DNA from: a virus
IMG/VR virus record: IMGVR_UViG_3300025383_001347
Span: 1 to 31,843 of that record
Reading direction: 5' to 3' (one strand)
DNA: 31,843 nucleotides
Part shown: in pieces, positions 927 through 18,456 of the stretch
How positions within the stretch are numbered: position 1 is the first letter of the stretch
Layout: every line of letters begins with the position of its first letter
The notes under the pieces: generated by a model
The model's database searches: none
What the model saw: the letters and a program-made list of their open reading frames with translations, nothing else
Told to the model about the DNA's origin: nothing
Position numbers and translations under genes: made by a program

Positions 927-1643
927 TTACCAATTTTTAATTCTTTCCAAAAGTTCATCAATTGTTATTGTTGAATTTGTTTTTTTTAAATTATTATCCT
1001 TATGTATCATCAATTTACAATTTGCGGGATGTTTCATTATATCAGGCGATATTTTTAATTTAAATCCATCTTTTACTGAAAACATATGATCTCTACTAAC
1101 ACCATTCAAATTATTACCTCTATTTGAAGCTGAATACCACCCATATTTTTTTATTAAATCTAAATCAAATTTATTTGGATATTCATAAACATTAAAATCA
1201 AACTTAGATTCCACCCTATAATATTGATAGTATTCAATTTTACAAGATTCACAAATGTATTTGTATTTTTCTTTTACATCGTTTGAACAAATTTTACATT
1301 TTTTTATTGGTTTTTCTTTTTTTGGTTTATTGTTAAAAAAACCCATTAATGAATTTTTTATTTTTTGTTTTGTTTCGTCAGTTAATTTTCTATTTTTATT
1401 TGTGTGTTTTGCAGAACAGGAATTTGAACAAAATTTAGAATTAATATTTGAATAATTTTCAAATTCATTTCCACAATTAACACATTTTATTACATTTTTA
1501 TATTTTATTTTTAATCCGAGTCTATTCATTTTTAATGATAGGGCCTTTTTAGTTACGCCAAGTTCTTTAATAATTTCATCTGGTCTTTTGTTTTTATTTA
1601 TTAAACATTCTAATTTTTCTATTTTTATTTTATTCCATTTCAT
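927..1643 (-). CDS. HNH homing endonuclease with N-terminal DNA-binding helices
   Basis: A 238-residue free-standing homing endonuclease. Residues 1-50 look like a helix-turn-helix (LGVTKKALSLKMNRLGL). Two cysteine clusters follow, CVNCGNEF...FCSNSCSAKH and CKICSNDV...CESCK, typical of small zinc ribbons. Between them KLTDETKQKIKNSLMG matches the NUMOD3-type DNA-binding motif. The C-terminus carries the HNH-like core: SRDHMFSV (H as first ligand), then PANCKLMIHKDNN, the Asn/His pattern seen in phage HNH enzymes. It would cut an allele lacking the gene and spread by repair copying. It sits inside the tRNA array between tRNA-His and tRNA-Cys, a common position for such elements. A TATTTATA box ends 4 nt before its ATG. 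Confidence 0.85.
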   Translation of the reverse strand: MKWNKIKIEKLECLINKNKRPDEIIKELGVTKKALSLKMNRLGLKIKYKNVIKCVNCGNEFENYSNINSKFCSNSCSAKHTNKNRKLTDETKQKIKNSLMGFFNNKPKKEKPIKKCKICSNDVKEKYKYICESCKIEYYQYYRVESKFDFNVYEYPNKFDLDLIKKYGWYSASNRGNNLNGVSRDHMFSVKDGFKLKISPDIMKHPANCKLMIHKDNNLKKTNSTITIDELLERIKNW

Positions 1644-14253: not shown

Positions 14254-14736
14254 TTATTGATTTGGTTTTTTCCATCTAGCTTCTCTTGCTTCGGAAGACA
14301 TCTGAATATGTTCTTCTATTGTGTGTTCTATTTGAACTCTAATACAAGTTTGTGGTCTACCGCAATTCATCAAATAATTGTTTATGTATCCCATCATATT
14401 TGCACTACCTATAGGATTAGCAGAATGAACATAAATTTGTGGTAAAGGCACTTTTCTATTCATACTTTCAGCTACTAAAAATTTAGCAGCATCATATCCT
14501 GTTTTTTCTTTGTGAATATTATTATAATCTAAAGTATAATTTTCTTTTACATTATTATAGTATTCAGTCATAGCTTCGTCACCTAAATCATGATCTAAAG
14601 ATATGACTTCAAAGTTTTCTAAACTTTTTAATTTTATTGTAGCAACAAAATCATCATAATTTCTAACTACAATCCATTCATCATTTTTTGGCGTTCTTAC
14701 ATCATCAAGGTATAATCTCATTTTTTCAATTTTCAT
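14254..14736 (-). CDS. cyclic-phosphate-processing receiver-domain protein (cREC-type)
   Basis: A 160-residue protein matching the receiver-fold family predicted to process cyclic phosphates in RNA repair. The first strand and acid pair read MRLYLDDVRTP, then YDDFVATI, the second acidic strand VISLDHDLGD, the helix GYDAAKFLVAE, and the signature PQIYVHSANPIG followed by a helix MMGYINNYL. The D/D/D/H and S/N residues fit a metal-dependent phosphate site rather than a signalling receiver. The gene overlaps the C-terminal RNA-ligase fragment by 11 nt, which ties it to end repair: it could open or remove 2',3'-cyclic phosphate before ligation. An internal start at MRLYLDD is possible. Family assignment comes from motifs; the chemistry is inferred. 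Confidence 0.75.
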   Translation of the reverse strand: MKIEKMRLYLDDVRTPKNDEWIVVRNYDDFVATIKLKSLENFEVISLDHDLGDEAMTEYYNNVKENYTLDYNNIHKEKTGYDAAKFLVAESMNRKVPLPQIYVHSANPIGSANMMGYINNYLMNCGRPQTCIRVQIEHTIEEHIQMSSEAREARWKKPNQ

Positions 14737-15373
14737 CTTTTTTAAATGGTTTTTCGTATTTAGGTTTCATTATTTTCCAAATAATATGTTCGTATGGTTT
14801 TCTATCCCACATTGCAAATAAAATTGGTCTATAATATGGTTCAACATTACATCGTTCTAAATGTAATGCAAATTCTTTTTTAGTTGGTTCAGGATCAACA
14901 TCGTTATATTTTCCATATCTAAAATAATCATGAATTTTACCACAATGTTCTCTGATATTATATTTAGCGTACTCAAATGAACTTATTTGTTGTTTAACCC
15001 ACTTATAAAATTCATCAGGTACTCTATCTAAAAATTCATCCAATGGTTTTCCATCTTTCATTAGTTCCCAAATATCTTTAGAAGAAAAATTTGTTAAAAT
15101 TTTATGGAGACGTTTATATTCTTCTCCTTTAATTTTCATACGGAAACCATTTTTGAAACGAATTACATAACCTTCTTTGTCTTTAGATATTTCTTCTTTA
15201 AGTAAATCGTAACTTTCACCCCAAGTTTTATATGTTGTAACAATTTCAAATCCATCAAGTTTTTCTAATTCGGTTTTACTAATCTCAACACCTGATTTAG
15301 TGTCAAATGCACCCAAAAGCACTAATCCTTCGTAATCTCCGTAATCTACAACTATTCTATTTTGTCCTCCCAT
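14726..15373 (-). CDS. rnlA: RNA ligase (T4 Rnl1-like), C-terminal half of a split gene
   Basis: This 215-residue protein continues the ligase begun at 16937. It starts MGGQNRIVVDYG, matching the Rnl1 stretch after motif IIIa (NRIVLAY in T4). Motif IV is EGYVIRFKNG (67-76) and motif V is MKIKG with K80 and K82. The C-terminal 120 residues are helical, as in the T4 Rnl1 end domain. Alone it lacks the nucleotidyl-acceptor lysine. The two halves total 362 residues, against 374 for T4 Rnl1, so little is missing. It has its own ATG, 5 nt after the 78-aa ORF, and overlaps the receiver-domain gene. The halves may assemble into an active enzyme; loss of function is the alternative. Confidence 0.82.
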   Translation of the reverse strand: MGGQNRIVVDYGDYEGLVLLGAFDTKSGVEISKTELEKLDGFEIVTTYKTWGESYDLLKEEISKDKEGYVIRFKNGFRMKIKGEEYKRLHKILTNFSSKDIWELMKDGKPLDEFLDRVPDEFYKWVKQQISSFEYAKYNIREHCGKIHDYFRYGKYNDVDPEPTKKEFALHLERCNVEPYYRPILFAMWDRKPYEHIIWKIMKPKYEKPFKKDEN

Positions 15374-15378
15374 AGTTA

Positions 15379-15615
15379 TTATTTGTTTTGGTTATAGGTT
15401 TGGTTGTAGTATTTTTTACCTTTTCTTGTAGTTTGACCAATGGTCTTTATATATTCCTGACAATCTTCCCAACCTATTTTATGTGCTTCTATTATCTGCT
15501 CTTTTTCTTTTTCAAGTCCTTTATTAATTGAATTTCTAATTGACTTATTCATAGGCCAGTCAACTTTAATATATTTTCCAATATCATCAATTAATTCTTG
15601 CATTGCTGTTTTCAT
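15379..15615 (-). CDS. hypothetical protein, 78 aa, passenger within the split ligase
   Basis: A 78-residue protein starting MKTAMQELIDDIG. It is helical, with EKEQIIEAHKIGWEDCQEYI, and ends in a basic Tyr/Gln/Asn tail (KKYYNQTYNQNK) often seen in small phage proteins. It lies 3 nt after the GIY-YIG gene and 5 nt before the ligase C-terminal half, so it moved in together with the endonuclease or was trapped by rearrangement. It has no nuclease motif. Function unknown. Confidence 0.6.
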   Translation of the reverse strand: MKTAMQELIDDIGKYIKVDWPMNKSIRNSINKGLEKEKEQIIEAHKIGWEDCQEYIKTIGQTTRKGKKYYNQTYNQNK

Positions 15616-15618
15616 AGG

Positions 15619-16431
15619 TTATTTATTTTTACAATTTTCAAAATGCCATCGGTGCATTAAACCTTCACCGCCTTCTTTATTACAATATGGGCAAGTTACT
15701 TTTTTTCTTGGAACACCTTTTTTTAAGGATGGTATTCCTTTTTTATTTTCACTTATTTTTTTTCTTGTTTCATTGGATAAGGTTTTACCTAAATTAAGTT
15801 GAGACATCCTAATTCGTTTTTTATCTTTGGTTTCTTCAGTTTGATTTTTTCCGTAACTATTACCTATTAATTTTTTTCGTAGATTTTGTTTATGTTCTTC
15901 ACTATGATAATGTTTTCCGGTGTTTATCTCACTAATTTTATTTCCAATTTCTTTTGCTTTATCTTTACCATATCGTTCAATAAATGTTTTACCTTTTAAT
16001 AATTCACTTAATTTCTTTTTTGTTTCTTCACTACAAGGAATACCTTTTTTTGATTCCGATATTTTTTTTGCACGTTCTATTTTTTTCTCATCACTCATAA
16101 TTTCCCATCTTTTTTTATGAGAGTTCGACATTTTATTTAAAACATCTTTTGTGAAAATTATTTCAGAACCTCTTGCATTATTATAGTACTTATTATTTCT
16201 TAAATCAATTTCTTTTAATAACCTTTGTTCAATTTGTAAGCACACCTCTTTTGTTCCTTCAGCTACGATTTTTCTTTCCCACTTCATTTTTGGATTGTTA
16301 AAATCATTCCAAAAATCTTGATTATGTGATGATGAAATATACCCATCATTTATATTTCCTTTATGATAACCAATATATGATTTACCATTAGTCAAATTAT
16401 ACCATTCATATACAAACGCCTCATAATTCAT
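15619..16431 (-). CDS. GIY-YIG homing endonuclease with NUMOD3 repeats
   Basis: A 270-residue endonuclease if started at the ATG at 16431 (MNYEAFVYEW). An upstream TTG would extend it through the TATTTATA box and is unlikely. The catalytic GIY-YIG domain shows VYEWYNLTNGKSYIGYHKG, with the catalytic region around WERKIVAEG and a Glu in CLQIEQRLL. It is followed by several NUMOD3-type DNA-binding repeats (KISESKKGIPCSEETKKKL, ISEINTGKHYHSEEHK, RMSQLNLGKTLSNETRKK). A C-terminal CPYCNKEGGEGLMHRWHFENC zinc finger, here quoted only in part, completes it: CPYC ... HRWH ... C. It splits the RNA-ligase gene. It has its own promoter-like TATTTATA 15 nt upstream. Confidence 0.9.
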   Translation of the reverse strand: MNYEAFVYEWYNLTNGKSYIGYHKGNINDGYISSSHNQDFWNDFNNPKMKWERKIVAEGTKEVCLQIEQRLLKEIDLRNNKYYNNARGSEIIFTKDVLNKMSNSHKKRWEIMSDEKKIERAKKISESKKGIPCSEETKKKLSELLKGKTFIERYGKDKAKEIGNKISEINTGKHYHSEEHKQNLRKKLIGNSYGKNQTEETKDKKRIRMSQLNLGKTLSNETRKKISENKKGIPSLKKGVPRKKVTCPYCNKEGGEGLMHRWHFENCKNK

Positions 16432-16446
16432 ATCTGTTTCTTTATA

Positions 16447-16454
16447 TATAAATA
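16447..16454 (-). promoter_or_regulatory. TATTTATA box for the GIY-YIG gene
   Basis: On the minus strand TATTTATA lies 15 nt before the ATG at 16431 and 40 nt after the stop of the ligase N-terminal half. It would allow late expression of the endonuclease and of the genes that follow, including the ligase C-terminal half. Confidence 0.5.
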
Positions 16455-16493
16455 TCAAATATAATTAAAAACAACACTATTTTATGGATAAAT

Positions 16494-16937
16494 CTAATAA
16501 ATAATTTCAAATAAATACGTATTATTTTTATTTAATTTATCTAACGGGTATTTTCCCAACAACTCTTTTCCTTTAATTGCTTGCGGTGATGTGAATGAAC
16601 CACGAGTTGTCATTATCCACTCATTTTCATAATTAAAAAGAATACCTAATGATCCGTCCATCTTTTCATAGACAACATAATCTTCATTTGGAATATCTTC
16701 TGGTTTATGTTCTTCGTAATTAAAAAATTTGGGAAAACTTCGTGCTTTAATATTACCGTCAAAGTCAGTTACTAAACCACGGCACATCATTAACAATGGG
16801 GTCCAAAGTTTTTCATACTGCACAAGTGGCGAATAATTCCATATTATCAAAGGATACGTTGGGTGAAATTGTTTATGTAATAAACCTTTTTCATACATTT
16901 CATTAAGAATCCCGATATCTAATTTCTCATTTTCCAT
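16494..16937 (-). CDS. rnlA: RNA ligase (T4 Rnl1-like), N-terminal half of a split gene
   Basis: A 147-residue protein with the N-terminal ligase motifs. Motif I is YEKMDGSLG with nucleotidyl-acceptor K92. Upstream are CRGLVTDFDG and FPKFFNYEE, as in Rnl1, and RGSFTSPQA corresponds to the motif III region. It ends with motif IIIa, YLFEIIY, then TAG. In T4 the chain continues FEFVAPTNRIV; here the next residues restart in the C-terminal fragment as (GG)QNRIV, so the break is exact to about one residue. After TAG the codons ATT TAT CCA repeat the I-Y end and supply the expected Pro, a short duplication scar. The start overlaps the LAGLIDADG gene by 19 bp. In T4, Rnl1 reseals tRNA cut by host anticodon nucleases. 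Confidence 0.82.
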   Translation of the reverse strand: MENEKLDIGILNEMYEKGLLHKQFHPTYPLIIWNYSPLVQYEKLWTPLLMMCRGLVTDFDGNIKARSFPKFFNYEEHKPEDIPNEDYVVYEKMDGSLGILFNYENEWIMTTRGSFTSPQAIKGKELLGKYPLDKLNKNNTYLFEIIY

Positions 16938-17704
16938 GTGTATATTGTTTTATATGGTATATCATATTCATTGGATAAAGTTATAACTTTTTCCCCACCT
17001 TTTAATTTTTCTATTATTATATCTTTTACGTTATAATATTTTTTATATTTTTTACCGTAATCATTATTATCAATAAATTTATTAAAATTATATAACTTAT
17101 AATGATTAAAACAAATGTCATCATATAAATAAAAACCAAAATCTACAGCTTTTTTTCCATAAAATCTTAATTCATTAAGATTTTTACATTGTTTTACTTT
17201 TCTAATATTTCCTTTAATTGGTATTAAATTGTTTAAATCCTCAATAAATTCCTTTGTCCCAACTAAATTAATTGTTAAATAAAAAACACCATTACCATTA
17301 TTGTATGTACCAATGGATCCATCACCATCAATATACCCTTGTAAAAAATACTTTAATTCGTTTTTATTTAATTTTGGTAATTTATATGTTAATGTTTTAT
17401 TTGGTTTAATATTATATTGTTCTAATATTTTTACAATTTTTTTATCTGTTATAGTAATGGTATTGGAATTATTATATTTAGTAATTTTATGGTTTGATTT
17501 TATTTTGTTTAAAATATTTTTTAATAATTTAAACCCCTCTTCTCCACTTTGAGATAATGATATTGTTCTATCGTTTTTAACATTACCATCAGAAGCCATT
17601 AAACCTAAAAAATAAAAAAATTCCTTTTCTTTTTTTTCAAAAAAACTAAAATCATATGAATAGATTTGACTAATCTGACCATTTTTTTTTCTTGTATTTA
17701 TCAT
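16919..17704 (-). CDS. LAGLIDADG homing endonuclease
   Basis: A 261-residue double-motif LAGLIDADG protein starting MINTRKKNG at 17704. The longer frame begins inside its promoter-like box. The two catalytic helices read FLGLMASDGNV (first Asp) and LQGYIDGDGSIG (second Asp). The space between them, about 100 residues, holds TISLSQSGEEGF and TITDKKIVKIL strands and helices, as expected for the DNA-binding saddle. The end, LSNEYDIPYKTIYTWKMR, looks like an added helix-turn-helix. It is free-standing and its 3' end overlaps the start of the ligase N-terminal half, so it lies beside the same target gene that the GIY-YIG enzyme splits. Confidence 0.92.
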   Translation of the reverse strand: MINTRKKNGQISQIYSYDFSFFEKKEKEFFYFLGLMASDGNVKNDRTISLSQSGEEGFKLLKNILNKIKSNHKITKYNNSNTITITDKKIVKILEQYNIKPNKTLTYKLPKLNKNELKYFLQGYIDGDGSIGTYNNGNGVFYLTINLVGTKEFIEDLNNLIPIKGNIRKVKQCKNLNELRFYGKKAVDFGFYLYDDICFNHYKLYNFNKFIDNNDYGKKYKKYYNVKDIIIEKLKGGEKVITLSNEYDIPYKTIYTWKMRN

Positions 17705-17707
17705 AAT

Positions 17708-17715
17708 AATAAATA
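17708..17715 (-). promoter_or_regulatory. TATTTATT variant box before the LAGLIDADG gene
   Basis: Minus strand TATTTATT-ATT-ATG, the same arrangement as before the bS21 gene (TATTTATT-AGT-ATG). Confidence 0.4.
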
Positions 17716-17740
17716 TTTTCAAAATTGAAAAAAAATAACA

Positions 17741-17986
17741 TTAGTTTATTGTTTTGTGGATTCCGATGTTGTAAGTATGTTTCAACCAATTAAAGGACAA
17801 ATATACTCCACATATTTTGTTCTTCCAAAAAGAAACGTGAGAATCGGGTTGACAAGTTTCAAAATATAAATAAACAAAAGGTAATGGATAAACTGCCCAT
17901 TGGTTTCTATGTATGATTGAATGAAATTTCATTTTTGTATTTTTTTGTGGTATTGTTGTAAAATAAGATTTAATGAATTGACTCAT
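17741..17986 (-). CDS. hypothetical protein, 81 aa
   Basis: An 81-residue protein starting MSQFIKSYF at 17986, one base after the kinase stop (TGA-A-ATG). An alternative start at 18004 would overlap the kinase end by 17 bp. It is rich in aromatic and His residues (FHSIIHRNQWAVYP, FVYLYFETC, CGVYLSFNWLKH). No signal peptide or clear membrane helix is seen and no family is recognised. By position it is part of the RNA-repair operon, between kinase and ligase, so it may take part in it; this is inference only. Confidence 0.6.
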   Translation of the reverse strand: MSQFIKSYFTTIPQKNTKMKFHSIIHRNQWAVYPLPFVYLYFETCQPDSHVSFWKNKICGVYLSFNWLKHTYNIGIHKTIN

Positions 17987-17987
17987 T

Positions 17988-18410
17988 TCATAACTTAATT
18001 TCAAAACGCTCCTTCATTTTTAGGAGTTTATCTTCTGGTACATTATGAACGTTTTCGCTACCATGTCTATTTTCAACAATGACAGTATGAACACGATAAT
18101 TGTATCTTTCGGCCAATTCAAAATATTCTTTCATTTCCCATTCTTGAGTGAATGTATTTGCAATAACAATCCTTTTTATTCCTTGCCTCATTTTTTCATA
18201 ACATCTAAATTGGCAATTGTTATGTGCTACTTTTAACTTACTTGCATCGAAATTGTAATTCCCGTCATCATCAGTGAAAAAATCATCGGCAGATAAAATG
18301 TGTGATTTTGAATTTTGTGGGGTATCTAATATTATTTCAGCTAATGTTGATTTACCAGATCCAGGAATACCACGTAATAGAATTAAATCTCCTATAAATT
18401 CTTTTTCCAT
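17988..18410 (-). CDS. P-loop polynucleotide-kinase-like protein
   Basis: A 140-residue AAA/P-loop kinase. I start at the ATG at 18410 (MEKEFIGDLILLRG), because the longer frame runs through a terminator. The Walker A motif is GIPGSGKST (14-22). A following ADDFF (41-45) and a final helix with VPEDKLLKMKERF match the N4BP2/T4-Pnk kinase type, where an Asp activates the 5'-OH. The lid segment lies around RVHTVIVENRHGS. It is the kinase domain only and has no phosphatase domain as in T4 Pnkp. Together with the ligase and the cREC protein it fits a 5'-phosphorylation step in RNA repair. A role as a different small-molecule kinase cannot be excluded. Confidence 0.75.
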   Translation of the reverse strand: MEKEFIGDLILLRGIPGSGKSTLAEIILDTPQNSKSHILSADDFFTDDDGNYNFDASKLKVAHNNCQFRCYEKMRQGIKRIVIANTFTQEWEMKEYFELAERYNYRVHTVIVENRHGSENVHNVPEDKLLKMKERFEIKL

Positions 18411-18426
18411 AAAAATTAATTTAAAT

Positions 18427-18450
18427 AAAAAGGGCCAGTAAAACTGGCCC
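18427..18450 (-). terminator. rho-independent terminator after the small lipoprotein gene
   Basis: GGGCCAGT and ACTGGCCC form a perfect 8-bp stem with a 3-nt loop. On the minus strand a TTTTT run follows. It separates the lipoprotein gene from the kinase gene. Confidence 0.88.
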
Positions 18451-18456
18451 AATTTT

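Follow-up and report, generated by a model that had tools for sequence, protein, structure and literature searches.

How can a mobile gene settle in the middle of an enzyme gene, with neither intron nor intein to take it out again, and what becomes of the enzyme? The question is raised by an RNA ligase locus on the virus record IMGVR_UViG_3300025383_001347, the whole of which (31,843 nucleotides) is called the window here. Since terminase, portal and eight tRNA genes are found on it, the record is regarded as a 31.8-kb fragment of a tailed phage. An earlier note, made from the letters alone, had proposed that an RNA ligase gene is divided here by a GIY-YIG homing endonuclease gene and a passenger ORF. 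From sequence comparisons, it appears to us that a GIY-YIG homing element did split a gene for an Rnl1-type ligase, and we consider it quite probable that the two halves form a working two-piece ligase. On the minus strand the genes follow each other in the order of kinase-like gene, 87-aa ORF, LAGLIDADG ORF, N-terminal half, GIY-YIG gene, passenger ORF, C-terminal half and cREC gene, and both halves lie exactly where the note had put them (Table 1). This configuration is seen again in five other viral contigs at 98-100% identity, and thus an assembly accident is excluded.

Table 1. Features of the split ligase locus in the window.
Feature	Position	Strand	Remarks
Rnl1 N-terminal half	16494..16937	(-)	147 aa + stop; PHROG 562 and Pfam RNA_lig_T4_1, alignment with intact relatives
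Ghost of native C-half start	16461..16493	(-)	decayed, in frame, IYP*NSVVFNY; residue, nucleotide and HMM matches
Leader, N-half stop to nuclease start	16432..16493	(-)	62 nt
GIY-YIG homing endonuclease gene	15619..16431	(-)	270 aa; NUMOD3 DNA-binding motifs; relatives at same site in 7 other lineages
Passenger ORF	15379..15615	(-)	78 aa; MKTAM...YYNQTYNQNK family; secondary addition
Rnl1 C-terminal half	14726..15373	(-)	215 aa, own ATG; PHROG 562 and alignment
Cassette-borne new start of C half, MGGQNRIVVDYGDYEGLVLLGA	15308..15373	(-)	common to all split lineages with small changes
Upstream co-conversion tract	16497..16586	(-)	window, L048 and L085 93-100% identical
Downstream co-conversion tract	15254..15373	(-)	window, L048 and L085 97-100% identical
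Polynucleotide-kinase-like P-loop gene	17988..18452	(-)	Pfam AAA_33, PHROG 2071 and 505
cREC gene (cyclic-phosphate processing receiver domain)	14254..14736	(-)	Pfam PF20274, E 1.4e-24
87-aa ORF	17741-18004	(-)	between kinase-like gene and LAGLIDADG ORF
LAGLIDADG endonuclease ORF	16919-17722	(-)	adjoins ligase N half

Do the two fragments really belong to one enzyme? The N half matches positions 20-165 of the 377 in PHROG 562 (RNA ligase/tail fibre attachment catalyst; E 1.7e-31), and the C half matches positions 167-370 of the same profile (E 6.9e-29), so that the two matches are contiguous and together span this T4 Rnl1-type family, as the note had supposed. For Pfam RNA_lig_T4_1, too, the N half is above the cut-off (E 2.1e-12). 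It carries motif I for adenylation (EKMDGS) and, at its extreme end (TYLFEIIY-TAG), motif IIIa (FEIIY), while the C half restarts at its own ATG as MGGQNRIVVDY, each half thus having a start of its own as had been noticed, and carries motif IV (EGYVIRF), motif V (KIKG) and a helical C-terminal domain. In an alignment with intact relatives, these four motifs line up with invariant columns, and in the relatives exactly one codon joins the two matched parts. Both the profile and a predicted fold match T4 RNA ligase 1 (PDB 2c5u, 5tt6, 9do4), which is a single chain in which the split would correspond to the boundary between FEFVA and PTNRIV. In the predicted fold of an intact relative, L084 (pLDDT 86), the motif IIIa strand occupies residues 133-140 and is followed by a loop at 141-154, and the split falls in this loop just past the strand. 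From the model and by analogy with other split enzymes, a cut in this loop seems compatible with assembly of two chains; lying beside the active site, it might also abolish activity.

Viral contigs were searched with each half, and about 150 loci were obtained. At 144 of them the two matches are joined directly with one codon (or none) between. These loci represent 74 distinct intact alleles, nearly all of which read FEIIY-P-ENRIV or close variants; the joining codon usually encodes Pro, and the residues there are PENR- or PQNR-like and in no case GGQNR. Thus a host coding sequence is broken at a codon present in its intact relatives, and the loss of about one residue postulated in the note corresponds to exactly one codon. 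A split at this same codon together with a GIY-YIG gene is found in eight lineages: the window, L048, L085, L049, L177 (with L158, L166 and L176), L178 (with L161), L175 (with L173 and L174) and L224. The last of them was found by a pattern search for the N-half stop, in which L213 and most other new matches turned out to be chance. Every split lineage is cut after FEIIY and restarts with (M/V)GG(Q/K)NRIVVDYGD. The same split-start pattern has nine matches in bacterial genomes, none of them encoding a ligase. A ninth viral C half (L056:1-472) is 99% identical to that of L049 (L049:4150-4995); it is preceded by an ORF that is not of GIY-YIG type and is unrelated to the GIY-YIG ORF at the same site in L049. 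By eye this ORF resembles Vsr/PD-(D/E)XK nucleases, which is a possible assignment to which Pfam gives a weak match (E 0.06).

Just past the N-half stop lies a remnant of what the split displaced. The note had pointed to the codons ATT TAT CCA there as an insertion scar. An insertion remnant it is, but not a short repeat: the three codons begin a decayed in-frame copy, about 33-60 nt long, of the native start of the C half, which we call the ghost and which takes the place of the short scar. It reads IYP*NSVVFNYI in the window and IYHKN*IVFDYG in L049; the reading is IYPQNSVVLDYD in L224, with a stretch IYPQNSVVLDY, and IYSQNSIVFNYI in L175, with a stretch IYSQNSIVFNY. Six of 12 residues of the window ghost are identical to IYPQNRIVVDYG (shuffle p<=5e-5), and comparison with IYPQNRIVVDYG stands above shuffles in 7 of the 8 lineages (p<=5e-5 to 3.5e-4), a recognisable ghost being absent from L178 in this frame-fixed comparison. 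At the nucleotide level, alignment of the ghost with intact alleles scores up to 27, the mean for dinucleotide shuffles being 10.2 (s.d. 1.8), and the PHROG 562 HMM, which was built independently, extends past the N-half stop of the window to 16461. Five other split lineages have a whole leader of 60-62 nt; it measures 56 nt to the first ATG in L175 and 49 nt in L178. Because the ghost precedes the nuclease gene, the latter actually sits about 60 nt inside the former C half, whose first codons are present twice, as a dead copy 5′ and a live copy 3′ of the nuclease gene. The live copy would have come from recombination with a donor allele. Besides the ghost, three things had escaped the note: that the cassette brings the restart with it, that the split has spread horizontally, and that the passenger ORF has no bearing on the split.

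The two copies provide a comparison within each locus, for the ghost can serve as a control of the same origin for the live copy. Over the same pairs of lineages, synonymous and amino-acid-changing codon differences number 12:20 in the ghost and 47:12 in the live copy (Fisher p ~1e-4, the pairs not being independent of each other). Over the first 21 codons past the new start, the window and L049 differ by 11 synonymous changes and 1 non-synonymous change, and L175 and L049 by 8 and 0; even the GGN-GGN after the start codon varies synonymously, and variation between lineages in the restarted segment is almost only of this kind. These patterns indicate that the C-half start is under purifying selection. 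As the residues GGQ..GDYEG are specific to the split genes, the constraint is supposed to have acted after the splitting. Wherever both halves are present, the ORF before the C half stops 2-11 nt 5′ of the C-half start, a distance which suggests translational coupling. The reading frames of the two halves are free of stops and frameshifts in all split lineages. Invariant ligase residues are retained at 74/74 positions in the window and at 71-74/74 in the other complete splits (the C half of L178 is cut by the contig end), and by these measures decay is absent from both halves. Could another complete ligase have relieved them, as the note had considered? None was detected in the split records, among them one of 190 kb, the window itself being a 31.8-kb fragment, and a second ligase family (PF09414) gave nothing above cut-off in the window and the 190-kb and 40.8-kb records.

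How did the same arrangement come to reside in so many alleles? Among the window, L048 and L085, the nuclease gene and the leader are 90-100% identical in every 60-nt bin, and the ligase flanks are nearly identical over some 60-90 nt on the upstream side and 120 nt on the downstream side, beyond which identity is about 50-90%. Such a drop, down to the level of unrelated alleles, looks like the co-conversion signature of homing. Indeed, in the 60 nt upstream of the junction the three are 100% identical and at most 82% identical to any intact allele, and 240-360 nt upstream the window is 98-100% identical to the intact L084. On trees built without the converted zone, the split label changes 7 times for the N half (bootstrap 7-7) and 8 times for the C half; supported branches force 7 and at least 6 of these changes, respectively. 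Some of them may be losses, and precise loss of the split would need recombination with intact alleles. Taken together, the co-conversion tracts and the repeated changes of the split label point to homing: the unit seems to have spread into empty alleles with co-conversion of their flanks, and six or more lineages to have acquired the split state, each time at an identical codon.

The ORF between the halves has the features of a protein that could drive this movement, and the note's naming of a GIY-YIG homing endonuclease holds. Its GIY-YIG domain is weak (E 0.013, below the Pfam cut-off), its NUMOD3 match is above the cut-off (E 3.9e-6), and nearly the whole protein is covered by the homing endonuclease family PHROG 314 (E 3e-18), so that it would possess both a GIY-YIG catalytic domain and a DNA-binding region. 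Its start is most likely the ATG at 16431, an upstream TTG being disfavoured. The ORF is open in all split lineages with a dN/dS of about 0.2 (window-L175 and window-L085), a ratio which suggests that the nuclease is likewise under constraint. A GIY-YIG protein of Aeromonas phage 25 is among its closest relatives in named phages, at 27% identity. The nuclease of L178 (L178:2661-3424) is 51% identical to that of the window in its C-terminal part and has no match in its N-terminal part; apparently the catalytic domain was swapped, and the DNA-binding part and the target were kept. The passenger ORF, which the note had counted as a part of the split, is to be removed from it: five split lineages (L049, L175, L177, L178 and L224) do without it and it therefore lies outside the splitting event. 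It belongs to a very common family of small phage ORFs (L238-L315) that is abundant elsewhere, and those in the window, L006, L048 and L085 were inserted without disturbing the spacing between stop and C-half start. As to the family itself, its members share constant ends (MKTAM... and ...YYNQTYNQNK) around a middle part that is exchanged; the modules recombine, for the C-terminal module of the window, YIKTIGQTTRKGKK, is joined to a different N-terminus in L251, and between the window and L006 the passenger ORF is only 43% identical in neighbourhoods that are 98% identical.

These observations can be arranged into a course of events. A GIY-YIG homing endonuclease gene would have split a phage Rnl1-type ligase gene at the loop past the motif IIIa strand. 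The mobile unit would consist of the leader, some 60 nt that stem from the native C-half start and are now decayed and closed by a stop, of the nuclease gene, and of a second, preserved C-half start with a new ATG or GTG 2-11 nt past the stop of the preceding ORF. Where a co-infecting phage has an intact allele, the nuclease presumably cuts it, and repair may then copy the unit with some 90 nt of upstream and 120 nt of downstream flank. The ligase of the recipient would end up as two translated pieces, since the re-start is supplied by the unit itself: the N piece would contain the nucleophilic lysine as well as motif IIIa, and the C piece motifs IV and V together with the C-terminal domain. 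As their conservation suggests, the two pieces most likely come together as a functional RNA ligase, which may act with the adjacent kinase and cREC in tRNA or RNA repair. That an element free of intron and intein, by means of a replacement segment with its own start, has turned a one-chain ligase into an active two-chain ligase in at least six lineages is a bolder statement, towards which we lean.

Might the ligase simply be broken and its loss tolerated, the nuclease having inactivated the enzyme whether or not the halves are expressed? In the laboratory an RNA ligase can often be dispensed with, as is known for T4 gene 63, and this lends the idea some ground. However, the intact frames and retained invariant residues, the almost purely synonymous change of the split-specific segment beside a freely decaying ghost, and the kinase neighbour that has been kept make it unlikely. 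Or do the pieces act separately, the N half as a carrier of adenylate, for example, and the C half in RNA binding or as a tail-fibre factor? The name of the PHROG 562 family does include T4 tail fibre attachment. In T4 Rnl1, motifs I-IIIa and IV-V build one active site, and all of them are conserved across the two pieces, which renders separate roles very improbable.

Another way to spare the enzyme would be to join the halves in RNA. GIY-YIG genes are common in group I introns, T4 td being an example, and insertion at the same site is what a self-splicing intron would also give. Yet Rfam intron models, at gathering as well as permissive thresholds, have no match in the window or in five other split loci. 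In L049, the non-coding sequence amounts to the 60 nt of the ghost and 2 nt, so that an intron core would not fit outside the ORF, and a spliced product would not need a C-half start codon and a GGN-GGN that varies synonymously. We give splicing, which the note had named as what would undo its proposal, hardly any credence. Translational bypass as in T4 gene 60 is ruled out by size, the gap being 764-1680 nt with closed frames.

We therefore return to a two-piece ligase made by homing, and ask what it resembles. Phage genes-in-pieces are known for nrdA of Aeh1 (mobE), 39/60 of T4 (mobA) and gene 43 of phage 25 (seg43), and RNA ligase is absent from the Edgell review of them (PMC2988022). The note's comparison with Aeh1 is apt: there too an enzyme gene is divided by a homing endonuclease that is free-standing, and splicing is not involved (PMC2988022; Friedrich et al., 2007). 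In that case, a ribonucleotide reductase with an HNH endonuclease instead of Rnl1 with GIY-YIG, both halves are translated and the product is active, whereas for Rnl1 reassembly is what we infer; and unlike nrdA, the present unit carries a replacement C-half start, leaves a ghost and has spread to several alleles. In T4, a topoisomerase subunit is likewise in two pieces with a homing endonuclease gene between, but enzyme and nuclease are others, and the review describes neither ghost nor repeated spread (PMC2988022). A GIY-YIG gene also lies beside the split gene 43 of Aeromonas phage 25, which encodes DNA polymerase and in which the nuclease is an uncertain cause of the split (PMC2988022). 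Replacement copies are known from mobile ORFs of fungal mitochondria with duplicated C-terminal sequences, namely atp6 in Allomyces and atp6, atp9, cox2 and nad3 in Glomus, where a nuclease gene moves with a replacement of host coding sequence, the native remnant stays and the copies have diverged synonymously (PMC3630166). In the fungal ORFs the replacement stands upstream of the nuclease as an in-frame fusion, so that the host protein remains in one piece; here it stands downstream of the nuclease and has a start of its own, so that the protein is split. Thus the element unites features of phage genes-in-pieces with those of the fungal replacement copies.

In the open-access literature no report of a split RNA ligase or split Rnl1 was found, so a two-piece Rnl1, judged by its genes, is most likely of a kind known from Aeh1 nrdA and an unreported case for RNA ligase there. 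With it, RNA ligase is added to the few enzymes that have been divided by homing endonucleases. Where other cases come from single phages, this one offers replicated natural experiments: several alleles have been cut identically, intact sister alleles are at hand, and the decayed copy is a control for the preserved one next to it. It is testable here how a mobile gene avoids the cost of breaking a host gene without splicing, and naturally split Rnl1 pairs are possible reagents.

Finally, the surroundings of the ligase deserve mention. The kinase gene is close to the ligase in most lineages, split and intact alike, and the cREC gene shares 11 nt with the end of the C half. Kinase, Rnl1 and cREC (14254-18452), together with the eight tRNAs at 5-2823, are likely a tRNA repair module. 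A LAGLIDADG homing endonuclease ORF sits exactly at the start of the N half with a 19-nt overlap. In the intact L084 the 87-aa ORF directly adjoins the ligase, and thus the ligase region of the window has been invaded twice. Among the tRNA genes, an ORF at 927-1643(-) has a weak match to HNH endonucleases (PHROG 1271, E 1.4e-5).
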